The position numbers were made by a program, and so were the translations under genes. The notes beneath the pieces are model-generated. The model was not told where the DNA came from. It was given only the letters and a program-made list of their open reading frames with translations, and made no database searches. Positions 38,763 to 45,795 of a stretch of DNA of 64,000 bases are shown here, one piece after another. The first letter of the stretch is position 1, and each line of letters starts with the position of its first letter. Source of the DNA: Anaerolineales bacterium (GTDB lineage: Bacteria; Chloroflexota; Anaerolineae; Aggregatilineales; UBA2796); contig JABTTZ010000002.1 of assembly GCA_015075625.1 (NCBI GenBank), positions 744,001-808,000 on the forward strand, in the 5' to 3' direction.

Positions 38763-39701
38763 TTGGATAGTGTAACTCCTCGCGAAATTGACTACACCGC
38801 GCCCCTTTTGTCGCCGAACGCCAGCCGCTTGAAGCCGAACAAGGGGTGGGCGGCGCTGCGTCTTGCCGAACTATGGCAATACCGCGAACTGCTTTACTTC
38901 TTGGTGTGGCGGGATGTTGTAGTCCGCTACAAACAGACCCTTCTCGGCGTGACGTGGGCGGTGATCCAGCCCTTCATGACAATGGTTGTTTTTAGCTTGT
39001 TTTTTGGCGGCTTGGCGGGTGTCCCCTCGGATGGAATTCCCTACCCCATCTTCAGTTTTGCGGCGCTCGTCCCCTGGACGTTCTTCGCCAATGGGCTTGG
39101 ACAGGCATCTAACAGCCTTGTGGGAAGTGCCAACCTGATCAAGAAGGTCTACTTTCCGCGCCTGATCATCCCCATCAGCGGTGTTTTGGGCGGATTGCCT
39201 GATTTTCTGATCGCTTTCGTTGTGTTGATCGGCTTGATGATCTTTTATGGCTTGTTTCCGGCATTGGGGGCGCTGATCTGGCTACCCGCCTTGCTCATTT
39301 TGGCGTTGATCACGGCGTTGGGGGTGGGGTTGTGGCTCTCGGCGCTGAACGTGTATTACCGCGATGTGCGCTATATTGTCCCCTTCATTATTCAACTGTG
39401 GATGTTTGCGACGCCCATTGCCTATTCCTCCAGCTTGCTCCCACAGCCATGGCGGACACTCTATGCGATCAACCCGATGGTTGGCGTGATCGACGGCTTC
39501 CGTTGGGCGCTGCTGAGCGGTGAGCGGGGGAATCCGCTGACGCATATTGCCGAGGGGGTTGGCTTCCAGTGGCAGACGATGAGCATGGCCAGCCCTCCGA
39601 TGGGGATGATCCTCGTCTCAACAGGCGTGGCGCTTGTCATCCTCCTCAGCGGGATTGCCTATTTCCGTCGTGTGGAACGCACCTTTGCCGATGTTGTGTG
39701 A
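38763..39701 (+). CDS. ABC-2 type polysaccharide/polyol export permease (Wzm-like)
   Basis: A 312-residue protein with six membrane segments. The opening WRDVVVRYKQTLLGVTWAVIQP and later SALNVYYRDVRYIVPFIIQLWMF match the O-antigen/teichoic-acid ABC-2 permease family (Wzm/TagG), which exports polysaccharides with a Wzt/TagH ATPase. No such ATPase is adjacent, so the partner must be elsewhere. A TTG start at 38763 is used, preceded by AAGGA. A perfect hairpin follows the gene at 39749-39772. Confidence 0.85.
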   Translation: MDSVTPREIDYTAPLLSPNASRLKPNKGWAALRLAELWQYRELLYFLVWRDVVVRYKQTLLGVTWAVIQPFMTMVVFSLFFGGLAGVPSDGIPYPIFSFAALVPWTFFANGLGQASNSLVGSANLIKKVYFPRLIIPISGVLGGLPDFLIAFVVLIGLMIFYGLFPALGALIWLPALLILALITALGVGLWLSALNVYYRDVRYIVPFIIQLWMFATPIAYSSSLLPQPWRTLYAINPMVGVIDGFRWALLSGERGNPLTHIAEGVGFQWQTMSMASPPMGMILVSTGVALVILLSGIAYFRRVERTFADVV

Positions 39702-39853: not shown

Positions 39854-41623
39854 ATGAATCTAAGAAAACTCGCAACGCTGCTGCTTGTTGCGTTATTTGT
39901 CTTGCCTTTTGCGGCAGTGGGACAGCCCACCAAAGCGCAGCCTATTTATCGCTGCTTCCCCACCTGCGATCCCGCTGATGGGAAATTCATGGTGTTGGTG
40001 GGAACGGGGTTGAATTCCCTCGTTGGGGGATCGATTGAAATCCAACTCGCTGCCCCTGCGGGTTCTGCCTCCTTCACACTCGGCATTTTCGATGGCGATA
40101 GCGAGCAACCGGGTGATTCGACCGTTCCAATAACCGTTGGTCAGGCAAGTTTTTGGGATCGCGTCACCTACATTAGTGGTGATGTCTACGACCCAGCAAA
40201 CTGGAATAACCTCGTTTTGGATTATGATTTGTATGCCGATCCCTTGGGGGATAACACTGGCGGAACATTCCTCGGCACGTTCAACAGCGAGACGATGCTG
40301 AATGACGACTGGAGCGAGTTTCTCATCCCCAACAGCCCTCTGGCGCAATCCCCAAGCGGGAACTTTTTCTATCGGTTGGTGATTAGTTCGCCAAACGCGA
40401 GTTTGCCCGGCGTCGCCAATCAGTTCAAGCTCCGCACGGATAGTTATTTGGCAGTTCAGCCTTCTGCCTTCCAGGTCATTGGCGGGAGCTTTAACCAAAG
40501 CGACTTGTTCTTCCTCTATCCCAATTTCCCTTTGCTCACCAATTCCCCCTATTCGGGGGTGTGGGATATCTATCTTGACTTCTTCAACCCCACCTTCGAC
40601 TTGGTGGTGTGGGATGGGGACCTTGACCGAGGGAAAGTGACGATCACCCCCGGTCCAGTGTTTACCGTCTCGGATAACGACACGGATGATCCTGATACAG
40701 CGAATGTTGGTATTCCGCCATGGGCGGTGGGAACGGCGGCTGTCCCTGAAGGGGTTGCCGTTGGGTCAACCTTCCCTGGTCCGGTTACCGCAACAGGGAA
40801 TCCGGCAGATGACTTCGATAACCAATTGGCGCTGCCGACCTCACAGCTCTTCATGCGTTCCCCAAGCATTGAATACACCGTCTACGATCCGAACGGCACA
40901 GTCTTCTACAACCCCAATCCATCGGGAAACCAAGAGTGGGAGCAGTTCCGCATCACCAGCGATCCGGCGGACCCACCCGGAACCTATGATTATTTCTCTC
41001 CATCGCTGCCGGCTGGTTTGTGGCGGCTGGAGCTTAGCGGACTTGACCTCAGCAACCTAAACGCCCTGCGCCTGTTTGTGAGGATTGCCTGCGTGCAAGG
41101 GACAAGTGTCCCCGGCTTCCAAGATGTCGCCTGCGATAATATCCTACGCCCGTTCCTGATTGGCGATACGGTGTGGTGGGATTACAACGGGAACGGCGTC
41201 CAAGACCCCGGCGAACCGGGTATCCCCGGCGTCATCGTTGAATTGATCGGGACGACTGGCACGGTAATCGCCACGACAACTACCGACGCCAGCGGGCTGT
41301 ATTTCTTCAACGTGGATGCCGGCACGTATACCGTGCGCGTTGCTTCCTCCAACGATACCAATACCCTTGTTGATGCTATTGCGACGACCCCCAGACAGTT
41401 CACAAACACGGTGGTCAATGCAAACATCCTGACCTACGACTTTGGCTTCCGCCTGCCACCCGGCACGCAGCGGACACCCACGCCTGTGCCACCGGTGACG
41501 ACTCTCCCTTCAACAGGGTATGCGCCTGCCCCCGACGGTCTGCTGCCTTGGGGAATCGCACTGATTGTTGGTGTGGCGCTTGTCGCTGGCGGGATGCTCG
41601 CCCGTAAGCGTCGGCAGAACTAG
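39854..41623 (+). CDS. Surface protein with SdrD B-like domain and LPxTG-like anchor
   Basis: A 589-residue exported protein. A signal peptide (LATLLLVALFVLPFAAVG) is followed by beta-rich regions of unknown family to about residue 430. A Cna-B/SdrD B-type domain then occupies about 436-500 (DTVWWDYNGNGVQDPGE, IPGVIVELIG, ATTTTDASGLYFFNV). The end has LPSTG at 551-555, a membrane segment and the basic tail RKRRQN, the classic sortase sorting signal. In this likely single-membrane-type envelope it could be covalently anchored, or the motif could be an archaeosortase/exosortase-like tail. No sortase gene is in the window. A hairpin region and terminator follow. Confidence 0.8.
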   Translation: MNLRKLATLLLVALFVLPFAAVGQPTKAQPIYRCFPTCDPADGKFMVLVGTGLNSLVGGSIEIQLAAPAGSASFTLGIFDGDSEQPGDSTVPITVGQASFWDRVTYISGDVYDPANWNNLVLDYDLYADPLGDNTGGTFLGTFNSETMLNDDWSEFLIPNSPLAQSPSGNFFYRLVISSPNASLPGVANQFKLRTDSYLAVQPSAFQVIGGSFNQSDLFFLYPNFPLLTNSPYSGVWDIYLDFFNPTFDLVVWDGDLDRGKVTITPGPVFTVSDNDTDDPDTANVGIPPWAVGTAAVPEGVAVGSTFPGPVTATGNPADDFDNQLALPTSQLFMRSPSIEYTVYDPNGTVFYNPNPSGNQEWEQFRITSDPADPPGTYDYFSPSLPAGLWRLELSGLDLSNLNALRLFVRIACVQGTSVPGFQDVACDNILRPFLIGDTVWWDYNGNGVQDPGEPGIPGVIVELIGTTGTVIATTTTDASGLYFFNVDAGTYTVRVASSNDTNTLVDAIATTPRQFTNTVVNANILTYDFGFRLPPGTQRTPTPVPPVTTLPSTGYAPAPDGLLPWGIALIVGVALVAGGMLARKRRQN

Positions 41624-41696: not shown

Positions 41697-41718
41697 CTCT
41701 CGATTGGTTGAGTTTTTT

Positions 41719-41745
41719 GGACGCACAGTAGGGCGTCCTTTTTTT
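41719..41745 (+). terminator. Rho-independent terminator
   Basis: GGACGC (41719-41724) and GCGTCC (41733-41738) form a stem followed by seven T (41739-41745). It separates the surface protein from the lasso peptide locus. Confidence 0.8.
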
Positions 41746-41775
41746 GTCCGTGTGTTTTGTCAGAATCGTCAGGTC

Positions 41776-42249
41776 ATGCCCCGATTATTAGCACGATTCT
41801 TCTCGCAGCCACCCCTTAAGAAACGTCTCTTTCTTTGGGCATGGGTTCTTCTTCTCCGCTTTGATCTACTGCTGAGGGCTGCATCCTTCCGGCGTGCTGA
41901 ACGGATTCGCCCCATACAGGTTGCTCAGCAACCCGCCCCGCCCCTTGAAACGATCCTGTGGGCGGTGAATGCTGCGGCTGCCCACCACCTTTACCCGATG
42001 ACTTGCCTTCGCCGCGCCCTGACGCTGCGCTACCTGCTTGCCAAAGGGGGGATCGTCTCGAACCTGTGTTTTGGGGTGCGCTATGAGGGGGAAACCTTTG
42101 CCGCCCATGCGTGGATAGAGCTAAACGATCAACCGTTTGGCGAACGGATTGATCCGACGGTACGCTATGTAAAAATGGAAAAAATGCCAGTGGCTATACG
42201 CCCACCGACTCCGGGGCTTAAACATCGGGAACACTCGGAATTACAATGA
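41776..42249 (+). CDS. Lasso peptide leader protease (B2, transglutaminase-like)
   Basis: A 157-residue member of the lasso peptide biosynthesis B2 family. The core TCLRRALTLRYLLAKGGI carries Cys77, followed by FGVRYEGETFAAHAWIEL with His111 and an Asp near 118 or 126, the Cys-His-Asp triad that removes the leader peptide. The short hydrophobic N-terminal region is typical. The family normally needs an RRE protein (B1) to present the leader; none is seen here, fused or free. ATG at 41776 is chosen over an upstream frame start because the first 24 codons beyond it overlap the terminator. The cyclase gene starts 16 bases later. Confidence 0.88.
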   Translation: MPRLLARFFSQPPLKKRLFLWAWVLLLRFDLLLRAASFRRAERIRPIQVAQQPAPPLETILWAVNAAAAHHLYPMTCLRRALTLRYLLAKGGIVSNLCFGVRYEGETFAAHAWIELNDQPFGERIDPTVRYVKMEKMPVAIRPPTPGLKHREHSELQ

Positions 42250-42265
42250 CACAAGAGGAGGGACG

Positions 42266-44149
42266 ATGGCGGGATTATGCGGAATTGTTCGATTTGATGG
42301 AGAACACCTAGAGGATCATCTGCTAGAGGAGATGATCAGGGCAATGGCATATCGCGCTGTTGATGGGGTGCGCCGCTTTACTGATGGGCAGCTTGCCTTT
42401 GCCCACCTTGCCCATCACACCACCCCCCAAGCCCTCAGCGAACAGCAGCCCTTAATAACGGCAGATGAGGCGTTCGTTTTGGTGACAGATGCCTTCTTGG
42501 TCAATCGCGCCGCACTGATCGCCACCTTGCGCCCTACGGGATTCCTGCCAGCCCAAGCTGACGACGATCTTAGCGATGCGTCCTTAATCCTTGCCGCCTA
42601 CCGCCAATGGGGTGAGGCGTGCCTTGCCCATCTTGATGGCGATTACGTCTTTGCCGTGTGGGATAAGTCGGCGCAAGTGCTTGTTTGTGGGCGCTCCCCC
42701 TTTGGAGGGAAGGCGCTTCATCTCGTTTATACCCCTCATTACGCCGCCTTTAGTTCGGATGTCACCCCATTATTGACTTTGCCAGGGATCTCCCGCCAAC
42801 CGAATGCCTTGATGCTGGCTGCTTTTGGCACCTTTCAACTGGATGAGGAGAGTTCAGAAAGCTACTTTCGTGATATTTTATGGCTGCCGCGCAGTGGGAT
42901 TATGCGGCTGACAGACAGCGGGGTGGAACAGCGTTGGGGGTGGCAGCCAGAGATGCCCCACTCTGTTCAGCGGAAGTCCGCCCACGATTATGCCGCCGAA
43001 CTGCGAGGCTTGCTGACCGAGGTCATGATCGATCAGATGCGCAGCAGTCGCCCCATCTATGGCATTTCGCTTAGTGGTGGGATGGATTCGACGACGATTG
43101 CCGCCTTAGTCTACCATCAACTGACCACGCAGGGTGAGGGCAAACTGATCGCTCATCACATCTATGCGGAGAGTATGCTTGATGAGCGCCCTCGGGTTAG
43201 GGCGCTGGCGCAAAAATTGGGGATCACTGTCCAGTACCATCCGATAGAACCGTTTGCTGCGTCGTTCGAGGAACTGGAAGCTCTGATACTGCCAGAAATT
43301 CCTTTTTTGAATCTATTTCAACCTATGAGTCTGTTTTTGGCAGGGGAGATCAAAGCGGAAGGCGGCAGTTTCTTATGGACAGGACATGGCGGGGATAACC
43401 TCTTTGCTCGCTCGCACTATACTCACTTGTACCAAGCTCTGCGCGGCGATTTTCGCTCTTTCCGTCCGCTGCAGGGGATCGCTAAAGCACAGGGCGAGTC
43501 GGCGCTGCGGCTTTTTGCGCGCTATTATGTTCGCCCTCTACTGCCTAAATGGGCGCTTCAGGGACGCGAAGTCGCCTTTAATGCGCGCAAATTTACCCAG
43601 CTAGAATGGCTTTCCCCCCGATTCAAGGAACAAGATGGGCTAGAGGCTTATTGGGAGCGGCAGCAAAAGCGTTGGCGCGGCATCTCTCCCTATCAAGATG
43701 CGTACAACCGAGTGTGGTATGGGTTGCAAGGTCGGGGAAGTGTCTTAGCCGCACAGCAAACCTTAGCGCGGGAAGGTGTTGAATCGCGGATGCCCTTGCT
43801 TGACCGTCGCTTGGTCAACTTTTCGCTCACCCTCCCTCTAGAGGAGGCACACCTCTTTGGGCGGCAAAAGCTGGTGATGCGCCGCGCCATGAGCGACCTC
43901 TTGCCACCGGAGGTAACCGGTCATTTTGGGAAGCGCCATGTGAATGCCTCCAGCGATCATACCTTTTATGGCATGATCGAACTGGTACGCGGCTTGTTTC
44001 ATCAATCGCGTTTAGCCGAACTTACCTTAGTTGACGATCAAACCATTCAAGGGCTGTTGGATCGCTATATTACAGAGCGCCGCCACCCTGATCAACTTTT
44101 ACTGACGTGGCTGATGTTTATGGAACGCTGGCTGCGGAAATTTTGCTAA
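42266..44149 (+). CDS. Lasso peptide cyclase (asparagine synthetase B-like, C protein)
   Basis: A 627-residue AsnB homologue. The N-terminal domain (1-210) has the glutaminase-like fold but begins MAGLCGIVRFDG, so the Cys is at position 5 and cannot be the N-terminal nucleophile; the glutaminase is thus probably inactive, as in lasso cyclases. The C-terminal domain has the PP-loop SLSGGMDSTT (about 268-277) that adenylates a carboxylate, followed by WTGHGGDNLFARS. It would activate the Glu8 side chain of the core and join it to the N-terminal Gly, forming the macrolactam ring. Its place beside B2 and precursor supports the role. A true AsnB is the alternative. Confidence 0.85.
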   Translation: MAGLCGIVRFDGEHLEDHLLEEMIRAMAYRAVDGVRRFTDGQLAFAHLAHHTTPQALSEQQPLITADEAFVLVTDAFLVNRAALIATLRPTGFLPAQADDDLSDASLILAAYRQWGEACLAHLDGDYVFAVWDKSAQVLVCGRSPFGGKALHLVYTPHYAAFSSDVTPLLTLPGISRQPNALMLAAFGTFQLDEESSESYFRDILWLPRSGIMRLTDSGVEQRWGWQPEMPHSVQRKSAHDYAAELRGLLTEVMIDQMRSSRPIYGISLSGGMDSTTIAALVYHQLTTQGEGKLIAHHIYAESMLDERPRVRALAQKLGITVQYHPIEPFAASFEELEALILPEIPFLNLFQPMSLFLAGEIKAEGGSFLWTGHGGDNLFARSHYTHLYQALRGDFRSFRPLQGIAKAQGESALRLFARYYVRPLLPKWALQGREVAFNARKFTQLEWLSPRFKEQDGLEAYWERQQKRWRGISPYQDAYNRVWYGLQGRGSVLAAQQTLAREGVESRMPLLDRRLVNFSLTLPLEEAHLFGRQKLVMRRAMSDLLPPEVTGHFGKRHVNASSDHTFYGMIELVRGLFHQSRLAELTLVDDQTIQGLLDRYITERRHPDQLLLTWLMFMERWLRKFC

Positions 44150-44467
44150 GTATCTATCCGTAAATTAAAAGGTGAACGGTAGGGGCAACCCCTCACCCCC
44201 TAGCCGCCTCTCCCGCTGTGCGGGAGAGAGGGAATAATATCTTTTTCGGGAGGGGCGCTGCCCCTCCCCTCCCCGTGAGAGACAAGGTGGTGAAGAAAAC
44301 GCCTGTTGAAAAGCCCGTAGATAGCGGTCAAGAGGGTAGGCTCATCCCTCACCACCGAATTTAAGGATAGGCTCTAAGGGCGCGTTTGGAATGTTAGGGC
44401 GTGCCGGTAAGATGTTCTCGGTGCTGAAGTGGCGGGTTGAACATAGGGTGTTATGAATTTTTTTTGA
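44150..44467 (+). other. Region between cyclase and precursor genes, no gene seen
   Basis: Includes a palindromic element, CCTCTCCCGC then GCGGGAGAGAGG (about 44207-44232), inside a C/T-rich run. Related C-rich runs occur at 25230 and 30850. No coding frame of convincing length was seen; no RRE protein could be hidden here. Confidence 0.5.
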
Positions 44468-44496
44468 TTGACATTTTCCCGACTCTGTGTTACTTT
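44468..44496 (+). promoter_or_regulatory. Promoter of the lasso precursor
   Basis: Perfect TTGACA (44468-44473), 17-base spacer, TACTTT (44491-44496). The expected start site near 44503 lies beyond an in-frame ATG at 44487, which rules that codon out and favours 44523 or 44538. Confidence 0.55.
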
Positions 44497-44522: not shown

Positions 44523-44717
44523 ATGGAACACTCATTTATGAATCCTCAATCACATGGTCTTATCGCAGTGGAAGAAAGCAGGAAAAGCAAACCCAAAAAG
44601 GGATATGTTCCGCCACAATTAAAAGCGTGGGGTGAACTTGCAACCCTTACACAAGGCTTGCTTAACCCTCCTTTGGAACCAATCTTTCCCTTCAGTCTTT
44701 GCAACCCTGGTACCTAG
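44523..44717 (+). CDS. Lasso peptide precursor (A protein)
   Basis: A 64-residue precursor from ATG 44523 (or 59 residues from ATG 44538). The leader holds YVPPQLKAWGELATLTQ with Tyr-17, Pro-14, Leu-12, Gly-8 and Thr-2 relative to the core, exactly the RRE-binding and cleavage register of known lasso leaders. The core is 20 residues: it opens GLLNPPLE, so Gly1 and Glu8 can close an 8-residue macrolactam, and ends with SLCNPGT. The tail has two Phe and an Ile as possible plugs, one Cys and a C-terminal Thr. The 44487 start is excluded by promoter position. A terminator lies 47 bases beyond the stop. Confidence 0.85.
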   Translation: MEHSFMNPQSHGLIAVEESRKSKPKKGYVPPQLKAWGELATLTQGLLNPPLEPIFPFSLCNPGT

Positions 44718-44763
44718 TCAACAACCATCCACACGGGCAGCGGGCATGGTGAGATGTTCCTTC

Positions 44764-44797
44764 AGCCCCCAGCACCTATAGGCTGCGGGGCTTTTTT
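44764..44797 (+). terminator. Rho-independent terminator after the precursor
   Basis: AGCCCCCAGC pairs with GCTGCGGGGCT (one bulge), followed by six T (44792-44797). It would end the short precursor transcript before the kinase-like gene. Confidence 0.75.
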
Positions 44798-44847: not shown

Positions 44848-45795
44848 ATGTATGCTCTCAGACTAATTGTCTCTCTACCCTTTTTATCTTCTGAAGAAGG
44901 CGGCAGTCCTCCCCTCATGTGGAGGGTGATTGATCGTCCCCCCTTGAGGGTGAACTGGTCACAGCCCACTGTACGAGGGGCTGCCCGCCGCGCCGATGGC
45001 GAATCGTGGTATCAGATTTACCGCGTCCCGACGCCAGACGGCGTGATCCATGTCGAACGCATTCTAGAGGTGGGCGATTACTATCTGTACCCCGACGCAA
45101 TTCACTGCCACCCGGCGGATCAGGCTGATGCCGATGAAGTGATGGACTGCTTCCTGAGCCATGCCCTTTCGCTGTGGTTTGAGCTACGCGGGCAGCCTGC
45201 CATACACGCGGGGAGTGTTGCCTTGCCGGAAGGGGCAGTTTTATTTTCCGCCGTTAGCGGGGGCGGCAAGAGTACGATGACCGCCCATTTCGTTGCGGCG
45301 GGTTATCCGCTCATTGCCGATGATGTGACGATCTTCGCCCAACAAGATGGGGAGATCGTCGCTCCAGCAGGCTACCCTCAAATGAAGATGACCGATGCCA
45401 CCGCCTCGCGGTACATCCCCACCTATGAGGCGCTCCCCCCTGTAAACGTACATAACCCCAAACGGCGCGTCCCCATTGGGACGGGCATTTTGGGGCGCAT
45501 GGCGGGTGATCATTCCCCGGTAAAGCGCCTTTACCTTTTAGAGCGTTTTGACCCTACCGAAGCAGATGCGGCGATCACGATCACGCCCATTCTGGGGGCG
45601 GCGGGTCTGATGGAATGGCTGCGGGCGTCGATGGTGACGTGGTTTGTTGAGCCGCTCGGCTTGCAAAAAGGGCGGATGGATTTCTTTGCCAAGCTGCTTA
45701 AAACGGCGAAGGTGTGTCGTTTGCGCTACCCAAGCGGCTTAGAGCATTTGGATGCCGTTCAAGCGGCGATTGTGGCGGATGTGGCGAACGACTGA
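44848..45795 (+). CDS. HPr kinase-like protein (lasso tailoring kinase candidate)
   Basis: A 315-residue protein with an HprK-like P-loop SAVSGGGKST (about 134-143), then HFVAAGYPLIADDVTIF, whose Asp residues bind Mg2+ in the family, and FMKMTDATAS-type substrate loop. Homologues in paeninodin-type clusters phosphorylate the C-terminal Ser of the lasso precursor. The precursor here ends in Thr, so phosphorylation of that residue is a testable idea and not shown. Related proteins also exist in PqqD/nucleotidyltransferase clusters of unknown role. Separate from the precursor by a terminator, so it may have its own transcript. Family call good; substrate inferred. Confidence 0.75.
   Translation: MYALRLIVSLPFLSSEEGGSPPLMWRVIDRPPLRVNWSQPTVRGAARRADGESWYQIYRVPTPDGVIHVERILEVGDYYLYPDAIHCHPADQADADEVMDCFLSHALSLWFELRGQPAIHAGSVALPEGAVLFSAVSGGGKSTMTAHFVAAGYPLIADDVTIFAQQDGEIVAPAGYPQMKMTDATASRYIPTYEALPPVNVHNPKRRVPIGTGILGRMAGDHSPVKRLYLLERFDPTEADAAITITPILGAAGLMEWLRASMVTWFVEPLGLQKGRMDFFAKLLKTAKVCRLRYPSGLEHLDAVQAAIVADVAND

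Follow-up and report, generated by a model that had tools for sequence, protein, structure and literature searches.

Organization of the locus

In the window, by which we mean the whole 64-kb stretch of DNA that was analysed, we found four genes on the same strand in the order B2 peptidase, C cyclase, precursor A and HprK-like kinase (K). The features of the locus are as follows.

41776-42249, + strand: B2 leader peptidase (Transglut_core3; lasso_biosyn_B2); PF13471, E 6e-21; NF033537, E 4e-20, above cut-off
42266-44149, + strand: C protein, asparagine-synthetase-type macrolactam cyclase, 627 aa; PF00733, E 2e-37
44523-44717, + strand: predicted lasso precursor A, 64 aa, stop included in the coordinates; called from the ORF, the leader model and the motif scan
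44523-44654, + strand: leader of precursor A
44655-44714, + strand: predicted core of precursor A
44715-44717, + strand: stop of precursor A
44763-44796, + strand: GC-rich hairpin followed by six T, terminator-like and bulged, downstream of precursor A; fold z -0.86
44848-45795, + strand: HprK-like kinase, 315 aa, putative precursor kinase; TIGR04352, E 2.5e-8, below cut-off; matched by HPr kinase structures

The open frame of B2 runs from 41704 to 42249 and starts at a TTG at 41704, with the conserved part starting near the ATG at 41776. The catalytic Cys and His are conserved in this protein, which is the one above-cut-off B2 that the genome carries. The C protein keeps the SGGMDS motif and its Asn_synthase match lies above the cut-off. 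Its best NCBIfam match is the lasso cyclase model NF033535 (E 1.3e-84), with a score of 285 bits that is under the cut-off of 525. Both B2 and C, the pair of genes expected near a precursor of the lasso class, are encoded close to the ORF at 44523-44717.

A dispersed repeat, which has 41 genomic matches and may be a REP-like or small mobile element, occupies 44165-44300 between C and precursor A. A consensus scan of the locus for a promoter and a terminator found neither; by eye, a TTGACA can be seen near 44470, as can the run of six T behind the hairpin, whose z-score does not mark it as unusually stable. Directly upstream of B2, positions 39854-41623 encode a surface protein with an SdrD-B domain, an LPSTG-like end motif and a membrane helix, which we did not count among the lasso genes. 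As a candidate lasso exporter we considered the ABC permease at 38763-39701 and rejected it, since it is of the polysaccharide-export type.

The precursor and its predicted product

The ORF at 44523-44717 is almost certainly a lasso precursor. Its translation consists of a 44-residue leader, MEHSFMNPQSHGLIAVEESRKSKPKKGYVPPQLKAWGELATLTQ, and a 20-residue core, GLLNPPLEPIFPFSLCNPGT. Computed relative to the predicted cleavage site, the leader positions are Tyr-17, Pro-14, Leu-12, Gly-8 and Thr-2, so that the leader has both the YxxPxL element and the Thr at -2 of the lasso class. The sole acidic residue of the core is Glu8, which falls within positions 7-9, where this class has Asp or Glu. There is one Cys (C16), and the only hydroxyl residues are Ser14 and the C-terminal Thr20. 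The full leader motif with an acceptor at core positions 7-9 was matched once in the window and not at all in 60 dinucleotide-Markov random windows. Furthermore, the NCBIfam model lasso_leader_L3 had a single above-cut-off match in the whole 4.68 Mb genome, and this match was at precursor A; run on the precursor protein alone, the model gave 18.5 bits, just under the cut-off of 19 bits.

These results agree with most of what the initial annotation had read from the sequence. The ORF that it proposed exists on the + strand with exactly these coordinates, stop included, and recomputing the register of its five leader residues gave the same positions, as did its 20-residue core with Glu8, one Cys and a terminal Thr. 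It had counted three Pro in or near the ring, and this holds for that part of the core (two in the ring, at positions 5 and 6, and one adjoining it, at position 9), but two more, at positions 12 and 18, bring the total to five. Its proposal of an 8-residue macrolactam is supported by the register, by the neighbouring B2 and C genes, and by related precursors in the class. Because no ring other than Gly1-Glu8 fits, and because the motif register, the adjacent B2 and C and the related precursors of the same class point the same way, a class II lasso peptide with an 8-residue Gly1-Glu8 ring is clearly the best reading of the sequence and in our judgement a highly probable one. The expected [M+H]+ of the core minus one water was computed as 2108.088, or 2188.055 if the peptide is phosphorylated.

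We found no close relatives of precursor A among the genomes of the family, plasmids, the PDB or PHROGs; a weak plasmid match was detected in Nostoc (E 0.09). Since no close relative is present in the collections searched, precursor A appears to be a new lasso peptide gene of a well-known peptide type, in keeping with the earlier statement that the sequence was not a known lasso peptide. The claim of a new natural product is borne out in so far as the sequence appears new, but its novelty is lowered by the commonness of lasso loci in the bacterial class, where B2 is matched above cut-off in 67 of 396 genomes. The predicted product would be a new Pro-rich lasso peptide with an 8-residue ring from an uncultured Chloroflexota lineage. 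The kinase, the missing B1 (see below) and the commonness of lasso loci in the class had been left out of the initial annotation.

A solitary B1 gene on another contig

The B1 (RRE) protein of lasso systems is normally encoded beside B2, to which it delivers the leader. In the paeninodin system, B2 alone fails to cleave and B1 is required (PMC5067487). No B1 was detected in the 64-kb window with filters off, and B2, C and the kinase are each free of an RRE domain. We also considered, and rejected, a B1 that had been overlooked in the window or that forms part of one of these three proteins, as there was no match and the domain boundaries leave no room for one. The genome does contain one above-cut-off PqqD-family gene, its only lasso-type B1, which is solitary and lies on another contig.

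G000:C1:360814-361077, minus strand: solitary lasso-type B1; PqqD family, with matches to lasso PqqD models and to lasso B1 proteins in the PDB

Among NCBIfam families, this protein is matched best by the two lasso PqqD models (E 4e-17 and 6e-16, neither reaching the model's strict cut-off), and in the PDB it matches lasso B1 proteins (9x90, E 9e-9; TbiB1, E 7e-7). Its nearest relatives among the collected loci are also B1 proteins of lasso clusters, with up to 52% identity. The gene is flanked by a Thr-rich lipoprotein and a CoxM-like protein, both named from their sequences, with no lasso genes around it, and a motif scan found no convincing second lasso precursor beside it. Given these neighbours, the solitary B1 could serve something else. 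Since the genome has one B2 above cut-off, the solitary B1, if it serves any lasso B2, serves that of the window. We consider it likely, from these comparisons, that the RRE for the window locus is supplied in trans by the solitary B1. A literature search that mostly covered sources outside subscription journals returned no description of an unclustered lasso B1; for lanthipeptide proteases, unclustered genes are documented (PMC8960859).

Together, the genes suggest the following course of maturation. The kinase would probably phosphorylate the linear precursor first, before processing. B1, made from its own distant locus, would then bind the YxxPxL part of the leader, allowing B2 to cut after Gln(-1). 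The C protein would adenylate Glu8 and join it to the amine of Gly1 around the tail, which would give an 8-residue ring and a 12-residue tail. We infer ring closure, threading, phosphorylation and the partnership with B1 from the sequences of the genes.

Conservation in a sister species and across the class

In the sister species (G010), B2, C, A and K follow one another in the same order, and B1 is again absent from the locus. The genome of this species contains an orthologous solitary B1, 50% identical to that of the window's genome, on a different contig, and a relative of the same lipoprotein lies about 5 kb from this gene. Identity between the window and the sister species is 37% for C, 39% for B2 and 45% for the kinase. 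The two C proteins are sisters in the C tree. In the B1 tree, which is short (82 columns) and was relied on only for this pairing, the two solitary B1 proteins group together as sisters (support 99/95). The genus is represented by two genomes only, so that the pairing of the solitary B1 with the B1-less locus rests on one evolutionary event.

The YxxPxL element is kept in the precursors of both species. The precursor of the sister species (L027:5953-6153, minus strand) has its core near GESPIIRVDSGINTSRPI, and a Gly1-Asp9 ring fits there only with a leader one residue longer than usual, which would place Thr at -3. The same genome has a second lasso-type locus (L133:7199-8967), truncated where the contig ends, with a nucleotidyltransferase-like gene, B1 and C. 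Neither a B2 match nor a close B1 was found in the other nine genomes of the family. A weak match to the solitary B1 (31%) in G006 lies inside a radical-SAM locus (L132:808-3961), which encodes two radical-SAM-like proteins, a tandem PqqD-like protein, a small Gly/Cys-rich peptide and an HprK-like protein and is apparently a different RiPP locus.

At the level of the order (154 genomes), a B1 relative was present in 11 of 11 genomes with a B2 match versus 6 of 143 without one (Fisher p 6e-13, a value that ignores phylogeny and includes loci with an adjacent B1). Of the unique B2+C loci flanked by 1.5 kb or more on each side, 59 in all, 56 have B1 nearby, the exceptions being the window, the sister species and G295. 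Two more loci without B1, L139 and L163, were excluded from the exceptions because they run to contig ends. The G295 loci, L112 and L227, are complementary: one has B2, C, a precursor and a kinase and lacks B1, and the other has B1, C, a kinase and a precursor-like ORF, with no recognised B2. This pattern suggests one B1 shared by the two partial loci; encoded apart from the B2, it would act across loci there too. Related precursors in the class share the layout of precursor A, with the acceptor at position 8 or 9, and many have Gly1 together with Glu or Asp at 8.

On this evidence, it seems probable that in the window's genus the lasso B1 has moved out of the cluster for good and acts in trans from a remote locus. 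If so, it would be a mistake to dismiss lasso loci elsewhere as broken for want of a B1. The indication that an RRE may lie outside its cluster bears on when lasso loci are called complete in genome mining, and the window locus together with the solitary B1 would allow RRE specificity in trans to be tested cleanly.

Alternative explanations

The lasso locus might instead have lost its B1 and be decaying or silent, with the solitary B1-like gene serving something else. The absence of B1 beside B2, when 56 of 59 comparable loci have it, would fit such a loss, as would the fact that no lasso gene adjoins the solitary B1. We nevertheless think this unlikely. All four genes are intact with their catalytic motifs, and the same four are retained in the sister species at the identities given above, a divergence at which a decaying locus would hardly survive; moreover, the solitary B1 is kept in both species, and relatives without the locus are also without B1. 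That two species have no RRE in the locus could also mean that B2 and C of this genus work without any RRE and that the solitary B1 belongs to another pathway. This is distinctly improbable, given that both precursors have kept the YxxPxL element, which is read by B1, that both genomes have kept a lasso-type B1, and that the paeninodin B2 needed B1 for cleavage (PMC5067487).

The remaining alternatives concern the peptide. Threading is unreadable from sequence, and the ring and loop are Pro-rich, features compatible with a C product that is a branched or linear cyclic peptide and not a threaded lasso; the placement of B2 and C in lasso families by sequence and the lasso layout of related precursors make such a product highly improbable. 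The precursor is short and its protein-level leader score falls just under the cut-off, as might be seen for a chance ORF beside unrelated genes. The probability of this is negligible, however: the motif occurs once in the window and in none of the 60 random windows, the ORF holds the only above-cut-off leader match in the genome, B2 and C adjoin it, and the sister species has a precursor in the same place.

The kinase and its predicted target

For the class II lasso peptide that we prefer, with B1 supplied in trans, the kinase gene predicts a further modification. The reported kinase motif, H-G-G-G-K-S-D-D (PMC10368454), is present at seven of eight positions in the window kinase; the first Gly is Ala135 there and Thr in the kinase of the sister species. 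PadeK and BsfK are reported to act on the linear lasso precursor (PMC9266682, PMC10368454). The target in the window peptide would be Thr20 or, less likely, Ser14, and we propose Thr20 tentatively, at somewhat less than even odds. The locus shares with the paeninodin type an HprK-like kinase in the cluster, and it lacks the C-terminal Ser of that type, the core ending in Thr and that of the sister species in Ile. In the initial set of 88 B2+C loci, from which duplicates had yet to be removed, 81 had a kinase. Since many of the precursors at these 81 loci end in residues other than Ser or Thr, C-terminal phosphorylation here is a guess.

Relation to known lasso systems

The window locus resembles the class II paeninodin type (PadeA/B1/B2/C/K) in its Gly1 core, its separate B2 and C and its HprK-like kinase, and both cores have a hydroxyl residue at the C-terminus, Ser in paeninodin and Thr in the window. 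The paeninodin cluster includes B1, whereas the window locus does not, and phosphorylation is known in the paeninodin type, whereas the window peptide is only predicted, from its genes, to be phosphorylated. The BsfA/BsfK system of Bradymonas sediminis (PMC10368454), in which B1, B2, C and an HprK-like kinase act on a core that starts with Gly and has its acceptor at position 8, is also similar to the window locus. However, the BsfA leader has Ile(-2) in place of the usual Thr(-2) found in the window leader, and BsfK acts on Ser3, whereas the window ring contains neither Ser nor Thr.

Lasso loci from Chloroflexota of the window's own order and class (OLB13, L028; UBA6092, L134) have in common with the window locus a YxxPxL...G leader and an acceptor at position 8, an HprK-like kinase is common in them, and the C protein of the window groups with that of UBA6092 in the C tree. 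These loci carry B1 beside B2, unlike the window locus. Two precursors and two kinases are encoded in the OLB13 lasso locus (L028:9080-11126), each precursor directly before a kinase. In three other loci (L102:8626-9606, L104:8503-9510 and L108:2925-3992), a second PqqD-like domain ends a protein of about 330 residues encoded between precursor and kinase.
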